From contig CANJIU010000005.1 in NCBI GenBank assembly GCA_947474365.1, positions 1-64,000 on the forward strand: a stretch of 64,000 nt of DNA, in the 5' to 3' direction. This stretch comes from Opitutia bacterium (GTDB taxonomy: Bacteria > Verrucomicrobiota > Verrucomicrobiia > Opitutales > Opitutaceae). Shown here in pieces: positions 43,725 through 51,828 of the stretch (position 1 is the first letter of the stretch; each line of letters opens with the position of its first letter). Both the position numbers and the translations under genes were made by a program. The notes under the pieces are model-generated. The model had not been told where the DNA came from. It did no database searches and was given only the letters and a program-made list of their open reading frames with translations.

Positions 43725-44072
43725 TTATTCCTTGGGTGCGGACGACTGAATCACGAGGAGCGTCAACGCTTCCGGCGCTCGCACCGCATGCGGCACGCTC
43801 GGGGGTAGGTGCAGGAGTGTGCCCCGCGTGAGAAGTTCGACACGTCCGTCGACGCTGAACTCGCAACTGCCGGTGATGACTTGGACCAGCACGCGGGCCG
43901 TGCTCGTGTGTTCGGAAAGTTCCTGCCCAGGGGCGAACTTGAACAGCGTGATGCGCAAACCCGGCGCGGTGAGCACGGATTGGCTGACGATGCCGTGGTC
44001 GACTTGGTCAATTGGAATTTCCAGCGGACACGAGCCAGGTGAGTCGGGAGTGAGCAGCGCGGAGTTTTTCAT
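43725..44072 (-). CDS. Cupin-domain protein
   Basis: The 115-residue protein starts at ATG 44072, or at GTG 44117, which overlaps the stop of the preceding gene. The cupin pattern is readable: ITLFKFAPGQELSEHTST (motif 1, His), then GSCEFSVDGRVELLTRGTLLHLPPSVPHAVRA (motif 2, His). It may bind a metal or act as a small sensor. It is the last gene of the respiratory cluster; a role there is only suggested by position. Confidence 0.85.
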   Translation of the reverse strand: MKNSALLTPDSPGSCPLEIPIDQVDHGIVSQSVLTAPGLRITLFKFAPGQELSEHTSTARVLVQVITGSCEFSVDGRVELLTRGTLLHLPPSVPHAVRAPEALTLLVIQSSAPKE

Positions 44073-44113
44073 GAAAAGGAAAGGTCGTTGCTGTAAGCGC
44101 CGATGCAGGACGC

Positions 44114-46246
44114 TCACGGATTGTATTCGAAGCCGCCGTTCCCGTCGAGCGAGAGCACCGAGAGTCGTCGGGGTCGTGCGTCAATCTCGGCTGTCCATGT
44201 CCGCCGGGGAGCAGCCGGATCAGGATGTGTGGCGACAACGACTGTGATGCGATGGGGACCCGGCGTGAGCGGAATACGGAGTTCCCCCACCGAGGCGCCG
44301 TCAGATGTGAATCCCTTCGGACGGAAATGATGGATCTGCGACCGGCCATCCACGTCGATTTGCACGACGACGGGCGAACGCTCGCGCCGCGTGGGTTGTG
44401 TGGTGCGCATATGGATGGGCCGCGGATCGTTCCCGGGGGCAAACGCGGCGACGGCCTCACCGGACACCCAGTCGCCGTGGGTGCGGAAGGTGAACACGAA
44501 TTCTCCGTCGCCAGGCGCGGGGTTGCGGAAGGGCGCATTTGCGCCCCCCAGGAGAATTGTCAGAGCGATCGTCGTTACGCTGAGCATCGCGATCCACGAC
44601 GCGAAGGGAGACCGGGCGGTCGGGATCGCGACGGTGGGCGACTTGAGCAGTCCGAGTGCGGCGGCAGAAAGGAGCTGCGGACGGAGAGGGTCGAAAAAGG
44701 CGTGGGCGACCTTGCGCGGGTCCGCGCGATTGGGGCGAAATTCCGGTTCGCGCGTGCCCGCGATCCGGGCCGACAGCCACCGGTTGCCCTCCTTGCAAAA
44801 CGCCTCGCTCGAACCGCAACCGACGACAAGCACGGCGGTCGCCCCCTTGGTGATGACACGCTCGATCAGCTTGGGCTCAATCCAGCCCGCGCAGGGAATG
44901 GGCCGCACCGTGAAGCCGGGCAACCGCCGCGCCCACGCGACGTGGTCGAAGAGTTCCCAACCGCCCTCTGACTGAACGCAGACAAAGGCGAGGGCGGGGG
45001 CTTCGCCGCGGGCGACTTCGGCGACGACGTAGCGCTCCAGTTCTCGCACGACTTGCTGTGCGTCGAACCACCCGAGACCGATGCCTTGCGTATCGCAGGC
45101 GCCCGCACACACACCGCAGCCGATGCAGCGGTCGGGATCGATCTGCGCCTGGGAGGGGAAGGGTTTTCCGTCGGTGCGTGGGACCATCGTGATCGCCCCG
45201 AACGGGCAGTCGTGAGAGCACAGCGTGCAGGAAAAGCAGCGCGACACGTTGACCGCGGCCTGGAAAACCGGGCGCGCCCGGCGGCGCCCCAGCCACCACG
45301 GTACGGTCGTCAGCCCGATCGCTGTGAACACGGTGGTGATCCAAATCCCGCCCCCGGAGAGACGCCCGGTGATCGCGAGTGGCCAGAGAAACCACCAGTC
45401 CATCGAAAACCGATTCGGCTTCACCGCGAGTTCGGCGATGGCGGCGTTGGTGGCGGGAAACACCAGCGACGCGATGATGACGGTGGCGGTGAGCCACGCC
45501 GTTAGGCGCCAGTCGGGCAGCAGCGTGCTGCGACTCTGGCGCGCGAGGTGAAGGCACAGTCCGCCGGCGATGCCCAGCGGCAACGCCATGTGGAGAAAGA
45601 ACACGACGAAAAACAGCAGTGACGGCACGGTGCGGTCGGAGGTGAAGAGCCGCAGCATCGGTTCACCAAACACGGGGAGCACGTCGATCGCGCGGATCGT
45701 GTCGAGTGCGAGCAATTGGGCCCGGACGTCCCAGACCAGCCAATAGCCGCTCCATCCGATGAACCACACCAGCGCGAGCAACGCGATGCCGCTCACCCAC
45801 GCGAGCCATCGGGCGTCGGCGAATTTTCGCGCGAGCAGCGTGCGCAGGCCGTGCGCCAGCACGAGCAGCATCACTAGATCGGAGGAGTAACGGTGAACGC
45901 TGCGGACGAGTCCGCCAAAGGACCTCGGCCCGAGCCCCGCCAGCGACGTCCAGGCCGATTGCACGCTCGCCGAATACCACAGGAGCATCAGCACGCCGGA
46001 GACGGTGGCGAGGATCAGCATGGCGTTGGCCGCGGCGCCGAGGTGGGCGAGGGGATTGACGCTACGCGGCAGCCAGCGCTCCAGCAGCAGGTCCAGGACG
46101 GCAACCAACCGGTCTCCCGCCGCCAGCCACCGGGCCGCGCGCGTGGGCGGCGGCGGCGGTCGCGCCCCCGGGGCGTCGCCTACCGGCCCCATGGCATCCG
46201 CGAGTGTCTCGCAATCCACGTCAGGATGCTGGTGCGGCGTCGGCAT
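44114..46246 (-). CDS. Fusion: di-haem cytochrome b, two 4Fe-4S clusters and an MvhD-like domain
   Basis: The 710-residue protein combines three electron-transfer modules. Residues 60-320 are a cytochrome b N-terminal-type membrane domain with two His pairs, H118/H132 and H219/H233, each 14 apart, for two haems. Residues 337-384 hold two ferredoxin motifs, CFSCTLCSHDCP and CIGCGVCAGACD. Residues 415-500 resemble the MvhD/FlpD 2Fe-2S subunit (FVCVQ, PCAGWIEPKLIERVITKGAT, VVGCGSSEAFCKEGN; Cys423, 452, 477, 484). One more membrane segment (about 548-565) and a beta-rich domain end the protein. It probably moves electrons between quinone and a soluble or membrane partner. The cluster around it encodes an oxygen-reductase-like complex. 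The fusion is unusual and its direction of electron flow is unknown. Confidence 0.85.
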   Translation of the reverse strand: MPTPHQHPDVDCETLADAMGPVGDAPGARPPPPPTRAARWLAAGDRLVAVLDLLLERWLPRSVNPLAHLGAAANAMLILATVSGVLMLLWYSASVQSAWTSLAGLGPRSFGGLVRSVHRYSSDLVMLLVLAHGLRTLLARKFADARWLAWVSGIALLALVWFIGWSGYWLVWDVRAQLLALDTIRAIDVLPVFGEPMLRLFTSDRTVPSLLFFVVFFLHMALPLGIAGGLCLHLARQSRSTLLPDWRLTAWLTATVIIASLVFPATNAAIAELAVKPNRFSMDWWFLWPLAITGRLSGGGIWITTVFTAIGLTTVPWWLGRRRARPVFQAAVNVSRCFSCTLCSHDCPFGAITMVPRTDGKPFPSQAQIDPDRCIGCGVCAGACDTQGIGLGWFDAQQVVRELERYVVAEVARGEAPALAFVCVQSEGGWELFDHVAWARRLPGFTVRPIPCAGWIEPKLIERVITKGATAVLVVGCGSSEAFCKEGNRWLSARIAGTREPEFRPNRADPRKVAHAFFDPLRPQLLSAAALGLLKSPTVAIPTARSPFASWIAMLSVTTIALTILLGGANAPFRNPAPGDGEFVFTFRTHGDWVSGEAVAAFAPGNDPRPIHMRTTQPTRRERSPVVVQIDVDGRSQIHHFRPKGFTSDGASVGELRIPLTPGPHRITVVVATHPDPAAPRRTWTAEIDARPRRLSVLSLDGNGGFEYNP

Positions 46247-47243
46247 GGGCTTCGCGAAGGAGGGCGCGGAGGCCGTCGCGCAGCCACGCGCGATGGCGCG
46301 GATCGAGCGTGAAGCGGTAGGCGATGTGGTTGGCTCGATCGACGAGAAGGAAAAGGTTGGCGTGGTCGATCACGCCAGTCTGCGGATTGCGGGTGGCGGA
46401 AAACTGCAGCCGCGTGAGGGCGTCGTGCATCGCGGCCGGCTCCCGCGCGTTGACGTAACGGAACTCCGGATGCGCTAGGCCGCGCGCACCGGCGACCGCG
46501 TCCATCAGCCCGGCGGTCTCGTATTCGGGATTGAGCGAGAGCGCCACGACACTCAGGCCGTCGCGCTCGACAGCCGGCAATTCGTCGAGAATTTTCCTCA
46601 GCTCGAGAAAGATCTCCGGACAGGCGGTCGTACAGGTGGCATAAACCCCGGTGACGAGCATCACGCGGCCCCGGAGGTCGGCGAATTGGAACGGCGCCCC
46701 TTTTTGGTCCAGCAGCGGCAAGTCAGGTAGCGCGAGGCTGACGCGGATACGTGCGCCGGGGAAGGGCGGCAGGATCTGGGCTCGGACGACATCGTTGCGG
46801 GCGTAGTATACCAGGCCTCCGGCGGCACCGGCCACCACCGCGAGTCCCAGTGCCGCCGCGCCGGTGTGGGCGCGCCAGAGCGACGGCGACCGCAGGCGGA
46901 CGAGGGTGTCGCGCCAGAGCAGCGCGGCGACGCCGACGACAAAAAGCGGTTCGGCCATCATGACCGAGACGGCGAGCCACGAGACGCCGCCGGTGCGCGG
47001 ATCGCCGCGGTAGCACCAAAATTGGAAATCCCGGACGAATTCCCCGAGCCAGCCACCCTCGGTCGGCCCGAAGATCGTCAGCAGCAGAAATCCCTCGTAG
47101 CCCGCGAGAGCCGTGAACAGAAACACGAGCAGGCACGGACCCGTGAGCCAGCGGGCGGACGCCGATTGCTCTGGTTCTTGGGGTGCGGTGGGTGGCGCCG
47201 CAGGGTGGCCCGGGGTGAGGAGCAGCGTTCCCGGATCGGTCAT
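46221..47243 (-). CDS. SCO1/SenC-family protein with an N-terminal membrane domain
   Basis: The 340-residue protein has three hydrophobic segments (about residues 33-58, 86-108 and 126-147), then a thioredoxin-fold SCO domain: PDLPLLDQKGAPFQFADLRG, VYATCTTACP (copper-binding CxxxC) and IDHANLFLLVD (ligand His). SCO proteins deliver copper to the CuA site of subunit II. The longer membrane part is unlike typical SCO proteins with one anchor. The gene overlaps the cytochrome b fusion by 26 bases and starts 22 bases after the stop of the subunit I gene, so all belong to one operon. Confidence 0.9.
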   Translation of the reverse strand: MTDPGTLLLTPGHPAAPPTAPQEPEQSASARWLTGPCLLVFLFTALAGYEGFLLLTIFGPTEGGWLGEFVRDFQFWCYRGDPRTGGVSWLAVSVMMAEPLFVVGVAALLWRDTLVRLRSPSLWRAHTGAAALGLAVVAGAAGGLVYYARNDVVRAQILPPFPGARIRVSLALPDLPLLDQKGAPFQFADLRGRVMLVTGVYATCTTACPEIFLELRKILDELPAVERDGLSVVALSLNPEYETAGLMDAVAGARGLAHPEFRYVNAREPAAMHDALTRLQFSATRNPQTGVIDHANLFLLVDRANHIAYRFTLDPRHRAWLRDGLRALLREAHADAAPAS

Positions 47244-47264
47244 GGTGTTGCGAGGCTTTGACGC

Positions 47265-48968
47265 TCAGCGCACGGGCCAGACATCGGCCAGCGCCTTCCA
47301 GTTGGCGAAGTAGTATACGGCGAAACACGCGAGGAAGACGAGCGTGAGGACCATCGTGCCCTTCGTGGCGTAGTGGTCGTTGGCCAGCGAACCCGGTTTG
47401 CTCCCGGCGAGCGCCGCGGGAACGCCCCAGTCGGCCATCGCGCGTCCTTCGATCTTGTCGCCGAAGAACAACGTGCCCACGCACAAGAGCGCGAAGACCA
47501 GCAAGCCGATGAAGGCGAGCACGCCGCCGATGCCGAGCAAGCCGAGCCAGAGGTGGGCGGCGGGTCCGTACACGCCCTGGGCGTCAATGTCCCAGCTGCG
47601 GCGCGACACGCCCATCGAACCCGCGAATGACATGCCGAACGAGACCAGGACGATGCCGATGCCAAACAGCCAGGGTTGGACGCGCGCGACACCGCGGAAG
47701 ATGAAGTCGCGTTGAAAAATCAGCGGGATGACATAGAAGGCGAGTCCCATGAAGGCGAGGGTGGTGCCGCCGACGACGGTCACGTGGAAATGCCCGGGGA
47801 TGCGCAGGGTGTTATGTGCGATGATGTTGATCTGCTGCGTGCCGAGGGTGACGCCGGTGATGCCGCCGAGGAAACCGAAGATGACCACGGAAAGCGCCGT
47901 GGCGGAAAACGCCGGATTCTTCCATGGGAGCGCGGTCACCCAGCCGAAGATGCCGCCAGTGTAACCTTTTTCGCGCATCGCGATCTCGACGCCCGCCGGC
48001 ACGGTGAAACCGTGAACCATCGATGCGAGCACCGCGAGGTACATGGCGTAGGAGGTGTTCCAGATCTTCCAGGTTGCGCCCACGCCCGGGTCGACGAGCA
48101 GATGGTGGGCGGAGGCGAGGTTGATGAAGAGAATGTAGAGGACGAACGCCGTGCGGCACACCGCCTCGTTGATCGGCCGGGATCCGAGGATGACATGCGT
48201 CAGCAGATACCAGACGGACACCATCGCGCAGACGTTGACCTGCTGGGACTGGTGGCCGAGGCCCCACCAGATGAGGCGATACCAGGCCGGGTCGGGCTGC
48301 GGCGTCCAGCCCATCGAGTAGGTGAACGTCGGGATCATCACGATTGCGCCGTGCAGCAGGGTGACGACCGCGATGATGGCCGCGGCGGTGGCGCCGAACG
48401 TCACGATCGGCACCGAGCCCTCATAGGCGCGATCGCGTTTGGCGACATAGAGCGTCGCGAAAAAATTGAAGACGCCGGTGAGCGTGCCCACGGCGACGAG
48501 GATGATGCCGAGGTAGAACAGCGGGTGGGCGAGCAGCGGCAGATAGGACGTCATCATCACGTCGGCGCTGCCGGCCACGATGATATAGTCGACCATCACG
48601 GCGCCGACGATCATCATCAGGAACGAAGCCCATGCGACTTTGCGCGAATAGAGCCGGGCGTTGAGCGGCGTCGTGCACGCGAAGTAGAGAATCGCGACCT
48701 CAAAAAACAGGATCCACAGGATCAGCATGTTAATGCCGTGGAAAGTCAGGATGCGGTAGAACCAGTCGACCGGAAGAAGGTGGACGGTCTGCCAGCGCGT
48801 GAGCGCCAACAGGAGCGCGGCGATCCCGCCCAGCAGGAGGAAGACGATTCCACAGACGGCGTTGAGCTTGATGAAGCGTTGGGCGTCGAGGCAGACGCCG
48901 AGACCGGTGGTGCCACAGATCCGTCCGGGCGTGCCGGGGGCGGCGAGGGAATGAGAAGGGTTGGACAT
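47265..48968 (-). CDS. Haem-copper oxidase subunit I, catalytic
   Basis: The 567-residue, twelve-or-more-segment protein has the full set of ligands: H77 (low-spin haem), H239 in WWGLGHQSQQV and the pair H288/H289 in SAHHLL (CuB), and H393/H395 in PGHFHVTVVGG (high-spin and low-spin haem). The position four residues after H239, where oxidases of types A and B have the cross-linked Tyr, is Gln243. Tyr278 in the next helix, ten residues before H288, could take that role as in cbb3 enzymes; this is inference. It reduces oxygen at the cytoplasmic membrane. It follows the CuA subunit gene by 11 bases. Confidence 0.93.
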   Translation of the reverse strand: MSNPSHSLAAPGTPGRICGTTGLGVCLDAQRFIKLNAVCGIVFLLLGGIAALLLALTRWQTVHLLPVDWFYRILTFHGINMLILWILFFEVAILYFACTTPLNARLYSRKVAWASFLMMIVGAVMVDYIIVAGSADVMMTSYLPLLAHPLFYLGIILVAVGTLTGVFNFFATLYVAKRDRAYEGSVPIVTFGATAAAIIAVVTLLHGAIVMIPTFTYSMGWTPQPDPAWYRLIWWGLGHQSQQVNVCAMVSVWYLLTHVILGSRPINEAVCRTAFVLYILFINLASAHHLLVDPGVGATWKIWNTSYAMYLAVLASMVHGFTVPAGVEIAMREKGYTGGIFGWVTALPWKNPAFSATALSVVIFGFLGGITGVTLGTQQINIIAHNTLRIPGHFHVTVVGGTTLAFMGLAFYVIPLIFQRDFIFRGVARVQPWLFGIGIVLVSFGMSFAGSMGVSRRSWDIDAQGVYGPAAHLWLGLLGIGGVLAFIGLLVFALLCVGTLFFGDKIEGRAMADWGVPAALAGSKPGSLANDHYATKGTMVLTLVFLACFAVYYFANWKALADVWPVR

Positions 48969-48979
48969 GGCCGTGGCGT

Positions 48980-49534
48980 TTATTCGACGAAGATTTTTCC
49001 GGACATGGCGTGATGGCCGATGCCGCAGAATTCATTGCAGACGATGGTGAATTCGCCCTTGGAGGTCGGGGTGAGTGTGAGCACGTGATCGTACCCGGGG
49101 AGCACCTGGAAATTCATGTTCAACGGCTGCAGGGAGAAACCGTGTTGCAGGTCGAGCGAGGAGAGGTGCAGTCGGTAAGTCTCACCCAGGCGGAGACGAA
49201 GGGCGGGGTACCACTGCCACATCCGGCCCATCAGGTAGGCGTCACCGCCGGCCGGAGGTTCGACGAGGGGCTCTTCCTGCATGAGGGGATTGGCGGTGCC
49301 CGTGGGCTTGTACGTGCCGACGCGGTTGGCGGCCACGAACTTCTCGGTGCGGGCGAGAAAATCGAGAGGCTTGACCGTGTAGGCTTCGCCGGTGCTGTTT
49401 TGCTTCCCGCGAAAATGCCAGTACGGCATCATCAGCGACATGACGAAGCACCAGAGGATGGCGCAGCCGAGCCAGATTTTTTCGTGGCCGGCCGGACGAT
49501 GAAACCACGGGGTGGTAAGTGGACGCAGGCTCAT
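48980..49534 (-). CDS. Cytochrome c oxidase subunit II (CuA)
   Basis: The 184-residue protein has one membrane segment (KIWLGCAILWCFVMSLMM) and a cupredoxin domain. The CuA ligands are complete: His in SLDLQHGFS and C-N-E-F-C-x3-H-x2-M in CNEFCGIGHHAM. It takes electrons from cytochrome c, so the complex is a cytochrome c-type rather than a quinol oxidase. The extra segment between membrane helix and cupredoxin part (about 50 residues) is unlike canonical subunits. The small membrane-protein gene lies 12 bases upstream. Confidence 0.94.
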   Translation of the reverse strand: MSLRPLTTPWFHRPAGHEKIWLGCAILWCFVMSLMMPYWHFRGKQNSTGEAYTVKPLDFLARTEKFVAANRVGTYKPTGTANPLMQEEPLVEPPAGGDAYLMGRMWQWYPALRLRLGETYRLHLSSLDLQHGFSLQPLNMNFQVLPGYDHVLTLTPTSKGEFTIVCNEFCGIGHHAMSGKIFVE

Positions 49535-49546
49535 GGGGTGAGGTGT

Positions 49547-49696
49547 TCAGGGCAGCAGGGCCGGTTTGGTGAGCACGAGTTCGACCCAACCCCACGCGGT
49601 GTAGGAGAGGAGGGGGATGACGACGCCGAGGACGAGGAGCAGCCAGGGGTTGTCGAGGACCCGCTGCCACGGGTGCTTGTTAGGTTCGTTGTTCAT
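49547..49696 (-). CDS. Small single-segment membrane protein of the oxidase cluster
   Basis: The 49-residue protein MNNEPNKHPWQRVLDNP... starts at ATG 49696, overlapping the end of the upstream oxidase-like gene, and has one transmembrane segment (LLLVLGVVIPLLSYTAWGW). Small one-helix subunits are common in B-type and cbb3-type oxidases. Tight spacing on both sides supports it being translated. The larger in-frame start at 49798 lies inside another gene and is not likely. Confidence 0.75.
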   Translation of the reverse strand: MNNEPNKHPWQRVLDNPWLLLVLGVVIPLLSYTAWGWVELVLTKPALLP

Positions 49697-51116
49697 GGAG
49701 AAGGTGTGAAGTCCGGGCTTCGGCGTGGCGCCACTGGCCGACGCGGCGCAGCATAACCGCGAGGAAAAATATGCCGCCAGCCACGGCGACGAGGCCACCG
49801 AGGCCCATGATGCTCAGCCCCAGATATTCCCCCAGAGAGCGGACGTGTTGTTCCACGCCGTACTGCTTGCGACCAAGGCCGAACGCGCCGGCCAACGCGA
49901 AGCCCAGGCCGAAGACCGCCTGGCCGCCGCCGAAGAGGATTAGTTGCAGCCGGGCGTGGGGCGCCGGCGCGACATCCGATCCAGCGGGCGCCACGCTCGT
50001 GCAAAAATCGTACGCCGCGGCCATCAGCGCGATCGTGACGGCGCCGATGGCGCAGTGATAATGCCCGGGCACCAGCGTGCTGGAGCCTCGGATCAGGGAA
50101 CCGAGTAAAAATCCCAGCACGGTCAACGCGACGCTGCCGGCGAAGCCGACGAAACGATGATCGCGCCAGTTCAGTTGCGCGCGGCGGCGCCAGACGTGGA
50201 CCCCGGCGGTGGCCACGACCACGAGCACGACGGGAAACAGCGTCCAGCGCATCAGATGCGTCGCCATCGAGAAATAGTTCGTCGTCGTGGTTCCGGCGAA
50301 GGCCAGCGGTGGCATGGTCACTTGCGGCAGCACCAGCGCGGTGAGGAGCGCGGCAGTCGCGTTGGGCGACAACACCGATTCTCCAGTCCAACGCCGGAGG
50401 AGGTGCAGCCACAGCGCCAGCATCGCCGCGACGTTGGCCGCCTGCAGCACGTGACCGCCGCCCCAGAACACCAGCTCATAAAAAACCGCGGGTGCCGCGT
50501 CCGGCGTGGTGCGCCAGGCGCCGAGGAATGTCACAATCGCCAGGACGTTGGCCGCCGCCGCCGCGCGCAGGGCGAACACGACTTCGCCGGACAACGCCTT
50601 TTCGTCGGTGCGGGCCGGCGTGCCGAGTGCGACCGCGAAAAAGAGCCCGGTGCCGGCAAACCAGCCGACGAGTCCGAGAAAAAACACGGGGTGATCGATG
50701 ACCGGCACGTAGTTCGAGAGCACGGGCTGCGCGCCGGGCATCACTGCTCCCACGACCATCGCGCCGACGCCGGCGGCGGCCAGGGCAAACGCGGTGGTTG
50801 TCACGCCGCGCGACAGGCGCGAGCCGAGCGCGAGGGCGAGAAAGGCGAGCGTCCCGGCCTGAAACCACACGACGATCGCGAGGTCGACGTGAACGACGAG
50901 TGCGCGTTTGAAGAACAAGGGATCCGTGAACAGCCAGTCGAGGAACGGCAGCCGGCCGATGACGAGGAGGAGCGAAAGCAACCCGGCGAGCACGAGGCTG
51001 CCGATGGCGAAAAGGAACCAGCCGCGCGCGCCGTACGTGGTGTCGCTCGCCGCCTCAACGGGGCGTATCTCTGGAAAGTCCCCGATCGTCGGGGCGATCA
51101 TGGTGGGTGGTGGCAT
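49680..51116 (-). CDS. Haem-copper-oxidase-like subunit I lacking the CuB histidine pair
   Basis: The protein has 478 residues from ATG 51116 (ATG 51101 is also possible) and about twelve membrane segments. It keeps the haem ligands of subunit I: H76 in VVHVDLAIVVWFQ and the pair H352/H354 in PGHYHCAIGAV. H222 in FWGGGHVLQAANVA matches the first CuB ligand. The neighbouring helix, where catalytic subunits have His-His, reads QVTMPPLAFAG, with Pro269/Pro270 at the aligned place. A CuB site is therefore unlikely, and oxygen or NO reduction by this chain is doubtful. It is the first gene of the cluster and may serve as a haem-only partner of the complete subunit I. Confidence 0.82.
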   Translation of the reverse strand: MPPPTMIAPTIGDFPEIRPVEAASDTTYGARGWFLFAIGSLVLAGLLSLLLVIGRLPFLDWLFTDPLFFKRALVVHVDLAIVVWFQAGTLAFLALALGSRLSRGVTTTAFALAAAGVGAMVVGAVMPGAQPVLSNYVPVIDHPVFFLGLVGWFAGTGLFFAVALGTPARTDEKALSGEVVFALRAAAAANVLAIVTFLGAWRTTPDAAPAVFYELVFWGGGHVLQAANVAAMLALWLHLLRRWTGESVLSPNATAALLTALVLPQVTMPPLAFAGTTTTNYFSMATHLMRWTLFPVVLVVVATAGVHVWRRRAQLNWRDHRFVGFAGSVALTVLGFLLGSLIRGSSTLVPGHYHCAIGAVTIALMAAAYDFCTSVAPAGSDVAPAPHARLQLILFGGGQAVFGLGFALAGAFGLGRKQYGVEQHVRSLGEYLGLSIMGLGGLVAVAGGIFFLAVMLRRVGQWRHAEARTSHLLHEQRT

Positions 51117-51828
51117 GCACCGTTGTAGTGCATGGGAGCGCTGCGGTCCTTGATCGCCGTCAAGGTTTTGCATCGTCGTCGCGCGCCGGCCTCGCGGGCG
51201 GTCGCAATGGCCCCGCGTTTTGGCGGTTCGGGGCGCGGTCATCTCGGCAACGGATCGCTCCGAATGTTTTTGGTGGGCCATCGTTACTGCGGTGCGGTTC
51301 GTCGCCGCAGTTCGGTGACGAGATCGAGCTTCCCGGCGGCCTGTCCGCCGGTCGGCTCCTGCCTACATCTACTCCCCCTTGGGCCCAGCTCGACGCAGGG
51401 GCCAACGCCGCCACTCGAGGCGGGGTTCGTCCCACCCGGCGGCCGAACTGCTCCCCTTGGTGGGAGCCGTCGCATTCGCCCCTCGGGTGTTCCCGGGAAA
51501 GCCTGGCCGAGAAGGATGCGAGAAGGATCCGTATAGGTTCCGAGAAGGATCTGAGAAGGATCCGAGAAGGATCCTGAGGAAAACCCCCTGCGTGGCCCCG
51601 GTGATCAGTCCCCATCCGCGGGTGCGCAAGGGCCCATCGCTGCGCCGCCGCCCTGGCACGGTAAGACCGAAGGGTCTGCAGCAAGGCAGCTGCCTGGCAG
51701 TTGCCCGTCGTCCTCCGTGTCGGTCTTGTCCTCTATTTCTGCGGCGTCCTGCCTGGAGCGGCGACGCCCCCGTCGCCGACATCGGATTCGGAAGAGCACG
51801 GCGAAAAAGCCGCCGACGGGTCATGCCG
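51117..51828. other. Intergenic region with short tandem repeats, no gene seen
   Basis: About 700 bases between the oxidase cluster and the integrase remnant. It contains the 11-base tandem repeats described separately and a hairpin GGCGACG-GGGG-CGTCGCC near 51772-51790. Open frames on both strands are artefacts of high GC. The oxidase promoter should lie near 51120-51300. Confidence 0.45.
51509..51574. repeat. Tandem 11-base repeats
   Basis: Six head-to-tail units of 11 bases: GAGAAGGATGC, GAGAAGGATCC, GTATAGGTTCC (degenerate), GAGAAGGATCT, GAGAAGGATCC and GAGAAGGATCC. The unit does not fit a codon period. Such iterons can bind a protein or arise by slippage. Confidence 0.85.

Follow-up and report, generated by a model that had tools for sequence, protein, structure and literature searches.

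A conserved gene cluster of an Opitutia bacterium probably encodes an eNOR-type nitric oxide reductase together with a CuB-less subunit I paralogue

The respiratory gene cluster on the minus strand of the window (the whole stretch of 64,000 nucleotides analysed here) is most probably an eNOR-type nitric oxide reductase cluster; for this assignment of identity and function, made from sequence, we estimate a probability of roughly 0.8. We read the cluster as a whole as the NO-to-N2O operon of a partial denitrifier. The catalytic subunit I, termed eNorB, has Gln where oxygen reductases have their active-site Tyr, and its gene stands in a fixed unit of six genes that also encodes a second subunit I-type chain lacking part of the CuB site.

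Gene organization of the cluster

The seven ORFs proposed in the first-pass annotation were confirmed at 51116-43725, all on the minus strand and in the proposed order with overlaps or short gaps. The one-helix gene overlaps the gene for the CuB-less chain by 17 bp, the cytochrome b/Fe-S gene overlaps the SCO gene by 26 bp, and elsewhere among the first six genes 11-21 bp separate neighbours. Homologues beginning MPPP... placed the start of the first gene at 51116. Pfam families were assigned as COX1 (two proteins), COX2, SCO1, Cytochrome_B with two Fer4 and FlpD, and Cupin_2; the 49-aa one-helix protein was without a Pfam family.

Assignment of the complete subunit I to the eNOR class

The catalytic eNorB (567 aa; 47265-48968, minus strand) is recognised by its invariant ligands and Q243. 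As anticipated from its description as a complete subunit I, every haem and CuB ligand is present: H77, H239, H288, H289, H393 and H395 are invariant in all 89 homologues. These six His, together with a CuA (cupredoxin) subunit II encoded directly upstream, are features of an eNOR. The active-site Tyr position (H239+4) is occupied by Q243 in 89/89 homologues, and the motif reads GHQSQQ, alongside a CuA subunit. Gln at this position sets eNOR apart from the oxygen reductases, which have Tyr, and from other NORs (PMC8756737, Table A4), and a relationship of eNOR to the B family has been stated (PMC11388526). An oxygen reductase was thus rejected because eNorB has Gln at the Tyr position, and bNOR, sNOR and gNOR were rejected as well, having Asn, Asn and Asp, respectively, at that position (PMC8756737, Table A4). 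The features of A-family enzymes (HPEVY) or cbb3 enzymes (CcoN with CcoO/CcoP, without CuA) were not found in the cluster, and the caa3 and cbb3 enzymes of this genome are encoded elsewhere. The oxygen-reductase-like enzyme of no recognised type that had initially been suggested therefore turns out to bear the signature of a recognised class.

It is very unlikely that the cluster instead encodes a B-family oxygen reductase, working as a terminal oxidase at low O2 and not as an NO reductase. Such an enzyme would fit the closest solved structures to eNorB, which are B-family ba3 oxidases, the combination of a CuA subunit with a IIa-like helix as in ba3 oxidases, and the automatic annotation of homologues as cbb3- or ba3-type oxidases. 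However, the cross-linked active-site Tyr of oxygen reductases is replaced in all the homologues of eNorB, while a haloarchaeal B-family homologue (L119) retrieved in the same search still keeps it, and both the co-occurrence with nirK and the common regulation described below indicate NO. The homologues from Thermus, Thermomicrobium and Defluviimonas in that search have QQ. In the phylogenetic tree, all the Gln-bearing sequences, including those of Thermus and Thermomicrobium, fall on one side of a branch with a support of only 78, in a set of sequences that contained no biochemically proven eNOR, so that a common clade with recognised eNORs is tentative. To our knowledge, a single eNOR has been purified, that of Rhodothermus marinus.

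The core trio and the conserved six-gene unit

The eNorB alignment, used for scanning, yielded 80 named loci, which do not form a random eNOR sample because all of them rank as the nearest relatives of the query. The order CuB-less chain, one-helix protein, CuA subunit, eNorB, SCO and cytochrome b/Fe-S fusion was complete in 61 of the 80 loci, in seven named phyla: Verrucomicrobiota (35), Myxococcota (13), Spirochaetota (3), Pseudomonadota (3), Planctomycetota (3), Balneolota (1) and Calditrichota (1), with two loci unassigned. Many of the other 19 loci are interrupted by contig ends. Nitrospirota, an eighth phylum, deviate from this order in that the CuB-less gene follows eNorB. Pelagicoccus sp. 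SDUM812005 (L063) is an example of a cultivated carrier. The genome search for the same gene order, which had been proposed as a check, thus found the order of six genes intact in most loci.

The CuA-bearing subunit II (184 aa; 48980-49534, minus strand; COX2) retains the CuA ligands H131, C166, E168, C170, H174 and M177 in 88/88 homologues. Its E18 is also invariant (88/88) and stands in an 'HEK.W' context, which we take to resemble the ba3 stretch holding Glu15. The one-helix subunit (49 aa; 49547-49696, minus strand), with one hydrophobic segment, occupies the position of subunit IIa (CbaD). In nearly all of the 80 loci the gene of a homologue immediately precedes the CuA gene, as it does in the eNORs of Thermus, Thermomicrobium and Defluviimonas. 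The resulting trio of one-helix, CuA and subunit I genes matches the gene order IIa-II-I of the B-family ba3 oxidases (cbaD-cbaB-cbaA; PMC3128077). The initial view that the cluster corresponds to no standard operon therefore holds for the unusual set as a whole but not for its middle trio.

There are also eNORs that lack the CuB-less chain, SCO or the cytochrome b protein. In Thermus thermophilus, whose relative of eNorB is among those with the GHxxQQ motif and lies near a nitrite reductase gene, and in Thermomicrobium, where a haem o synthase gene is close by, the trio is not accompanied by CuB-less, SCO or cytochrome b genes; in Defluviimonas it is found together with genes for SCO, a haem o synthase and a cytochrome b. 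Separate occurrence in other genomes, which the first-pass annotation had named as evidence against a joint system, was thus observed for the trio only (Thermus and Thermomicrobium) and not for the other genes.

SCO, the cytochrome b/Fe-S fusion and the cupin

The membrane-anchored SCO copper chaperone (340 aa; 46221-47243, minus strand; SCO1-SenC) has three hydrophobic segments at its N-terminus, in agreement with the multi-segment SCO described earlier. Its Cu site is conserved, with C204 and C208 in 83/83 and H294 in 82/83 homologues. A further Cys, C77, located in the N-terminal membrane-anchored part and outside the CxxxC...H site, is invariant (83/83).

The next protein (710 aa; 44114-46246, minus strand) combines, according to Pfam and its model (pLDDT 89.7), a cytochrome b6-like domain, two [4Fe-4S] clusters, an FlpD-like part, a transmembrane segment and a C-terminal beta domain. 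Four His and eight Cys are invariant (81/81), and three additional Cys in the FlpD-like part are found in about 75-80% of the homologues. The best PDB matches were cytochrome b/b6 folds, with good coverage of that part only. The C-terminal beta domain gave no Pfam match, and an identity with FixG_C was rejected on this ground. Hydrophobic segments and the model suggest that the Fe-S domains face the inside, with the C-terminal beta domain on the outer side. H612-M613-R614 and H665 are conserved in this predicted outer domain and could bind metal.

The cupin (115 aa from ATG, with an alternative GTG start at 44117; 43725-44072, minus strand; Cupin_2) had been counted as a member of the cluster. 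Its gene was found in only 13 of the 80 loci, all from Opitutaceae and near relatives, and at times on the opposite strand, which rules it out as a core member. It is probably a lineage-restricted neighbour outside the system.

The CuB-less chain

The first gene of the cluster (49680-51116, minus strand) encodes a subunit I paralogue of 478 aa, as judged by its COX1 Pfam match, ligand conservation and fold. Its AlphaFold2 model (pLDDT 91.8) matches the fold of cytochrome oxidase subunits I with Z scores of 27-30, so that a subunit-I fold and the haem-ligand His are both present. H76 in helix II, H222 in helix VI, and H352 and H354 in helix X are invariant in 72/72 homologues and also in alignment A2. 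Both CuB His of helix VII are absent (72/72), and the three CuB His of a catalytic chain are thus incomplete. The label CuB-less is accurate for the loss of these two His, but the helix VI CuB His and all the haem ligands have been retained. An Arg-Lys pair aligns with R456/R457 of eNorB. The chain most likely binds two haems and no CuB and would serve eNorB as a partner without catalytic activity, in a structural role or as an electron relay; to this last step, the least certain of our reading, we give somewhat less than even odds.

Phylogenetically, the CuB-less chain forms a single clade (SH-aLRT 100), the exact attachment of which is unsure because its stem is very long. The eNorB sequences of the cluster-bearing genomes form a clade as well (93), and the sampled eNORs outside it are without the CuB-less chain. 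Inside this eNorB clade, some Pedosphaera-like Verrucomicrobiota and Bacteroidota lack the CuB-less chain anywhere in their genomes, which suggests that the chain was gained once and later lost in some lineages.

Strong matches to the CuB-less chain were found in five of 288 Verrucomicrobiota genomes (including that of the window), all with eNOR. The chain was also found in 34 of 282 Myxococcota genomes; eNorB was confirmed in 31 of these, and in the remaining three (G490, G666 and G506) the locus runs into contig edges. The Myxococcota genomes G560, G568, G653 and G558 contain the full cluster and not the CuB-less gene alone. No genome among the 288 Verrucomicrobiota and 282 Myxococcota carries the CuB-less chain without eNOR where contigs permit the test. 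Together with the order intact in 61/80 loci, this bears out the earlier proposal of an unusual combination of genes with a functional link. In the Planctomycetota isolate FR_29 (L124 8651-11187), the CuB-less gene is located apart from eNOR and adjoins genes for a cytochrome c and for a precorrin-2 dehydrogenase-like protein.

Alternatively, the CuB-less chain could act as an assembly or insertion factor of eNOR, for haem or copper loading, and not as a subunit of the mature enzyme. Pairwise distances of the CuB-less chain correlate most with those of SCO (r = 0.76) and the cytochrome b/Fe-S fusion (0.64) and less with those of eNorB (0.41), and this stronger tracking would also fit a role in assembly; the correlations are positive for all pairs and hence not decisive as a means to pick a partner. 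That some eNORs do without the chain, and that its evolution is faster than that of eNorB (mean identity 0.42 vs 0.69), points the same way. On the other hand, the three haem-ligand His and the helix VI His are invariant across at least eight phyla, and for this reason a standing cofactor role is suggested, and the CuB-less gene adjoins the IIa, CuA and eNorB genes in nearly all loci carrying it. We consider a factor of this kind rather unlikely.

Denitrification context and the FNR/DNR-type box

The genome itself encodes a NirK (on C2) that carries a c-type haem domain at its C-terminus, and neither NosZ nor a qNOR domain was found in it. Other COX1 matches in the genome are one caa3, one cbb3 and one ligand-poor relative; no second NOR was recognised there, with cNOR excluded by the COX1 search. 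NirK scored above the cut-off in eight of nine examined eNOR genomes of the phylum, compared with six of 12 relatives without eNOR, and in 20 loci a close NirK is encoded no more than about 10 kb from the cluster.

An FNR/DNR-type palindrome, TTGACGGCGATCAA (14 bp; 51150-51163, minus strand), begins 47 bp upstream of the first ATG and, at 51163-51150, is the sole TTGAYNNNNRTCAA match in the 64-kb window (0.08 expected). Among 71 homologous upstream regions, which are not 71 independent events because many are related, TTGATNNNNATCAA occurred exactly in nine and with at most one mismatch in 30, against an expectation of 0.23 and 1.18, respectively, from 8,467 control windows. The upstream regions of Myxococcota are largely without the box. 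In the genome of the window, the same kind of box begins 64 bp upstream of nirK, and a gene for a regulator of the CRP/FNR family lies about 2 kb downstream of nirK.

Two further genes were noted. Immediately before nirK, and preceded by an FNR-type box of its own, lies a gene with a YwiC-like start (L137 6692-7489); a YwiC-like gene is also found near the Thermus eNOR (L118). The fifth COX1-family protein of the genome (L004, G000:C105:20028-21161) apparently lacks the GHxH haem-ligand motif; its gene adjoins cytochrome c and alternative-complex-III-like genes, and it is possibly another non-catalytic relative of subunit I.

Proposed electron path

NO reduction, the electron and proton paths, the roles of the cytochrome b/Fe-S and CuB-less proteins and any supercomplex are described here as we infer them. 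Electrons would enter at CuA and pass via the low-spin haem to the haem/CuB site of eNorB, where two NO would be reduced to N2O, with proton uptake perhaps via a ba3-like K path. NO would be supplied by the NirK of the same genome, whose gene has the same FNR/DNR-type box, and N2O would be the end product because no NosZ was found. SCO would load CuA. The cytochrome b/Fe-S fusion would move electrons between the cytoplasmic and the outer side; by analogy with NosR and CcoG, its task could be that of an electron donor module or of a reductase in copper loading.

No conserved gene for a cytochrome c donor was found in cis beside the cluster; one was seen only next to the displaced CuB-less gene of the Planctomycetota isolate. 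The absence of such a gene would favour a quinol-driven NO reductase (supercomplex), in which a module of the CuB-less chain and the cytochrome b/Fe-S protein oxidises quinol and passes the electrons straight to CuA. So would the two bis-His haem sites of the cytochrome b domain, the gene of which lies next to the CuA genes, and eNorB has been called quinol-dependent (PMC13274419). However, no quinone site could be assigned, the cluster holds no Rieske or subunit IV partner for the cytochrome b part, and the neighbourhood of the Thermus eNOR is without both proteins; we consider such a module unlikely. Equally doubtful is a hetero-complex in which eNORs of this subclade would pair the active chain with a CuB-less chain bearing two haems, the latter relaying electrons with the cytochrome b/Fe-S protein into CuA; the second haem of the CuB-less chain would then possibly be held from both sides by H352 and H222. 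If true, the enzyme would be an NO reductase supercomplex driven by quinol or ferredoxin, and we know of no NOR that resembles one.

Implications of the six-gene unit

The enzyme class eNOR is already known, though little studied. For the haem-retaining CuB-less partner and the fixed six-gene unit, no description was found in the open literature, a search outside which the main eNOR paper fell, and their newness is accordingly provisional. The cluster of six genes provides an easily recognised marker for one eNOR subclade present in at least eight phyla. Because eNORs are commonly annotated as oxygen reductases, the ability to produce N2O, a greenhouse gas, is missed in many genomes. The cluster also raises the question of why an NO reductase would retain, over long evolution, a paralogue that has kept its haem sites and lacks CuB.

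Comparison with known systems

The eNOR class is the subject of Hemp & Gennis 2008 and of Murali et al. 2024, the main eNOR paper. For the CuB-less chain, a parallel exists in the CydAA' form of cytochrome bd (Murali et al. 2021), in which a paralogue of the catalytic subunit that has lost part of the cofactor ligands is said to pair with the catalytic subunit; this is an analogy only, the protein family being unrelated. CcoG and NosR are membrane proteins with a cytoplasmic [4Fe-4S] domain that serve a copper respiratory enzyme. Compared with these, again by analogy only, the fusion protein described here has as its membrane part a cytochrome b6 domain, which contains two haem sites.

Among the NO reductases, the bNOR (CuANOR) of Bacillus is likewise a CuA-containing B-type enzyme, but it has Asn in the active site (PMC8756737, Table A4) instead of Gln. 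With the ba3 operon (cbaD-cbaB-cbaA; PMC3128077), the cluster shares the order IIa-II-I, and the nearest solved relatives of eNorB are ba3 enzymes; the cluster differs in the exchange of Tyr for Gln and in the added genes for the CuB-less chain, SCO and the cytochrome b/Fe-S protein. The closest likeness is with eNOR (PMC8756737, PMC4653789), comprising Gln for Tyr, all the haem and CuB His, a CuA subunit encoded immediately upstream and the link to NirK. Relative to the eNOR loci of Thermus and Thermomicrobium, the cluster described here additionally encodes a CuB-less chain that retains its haem ligands and a cytochrome b/[4Fe-4S]/FlpD fusion.
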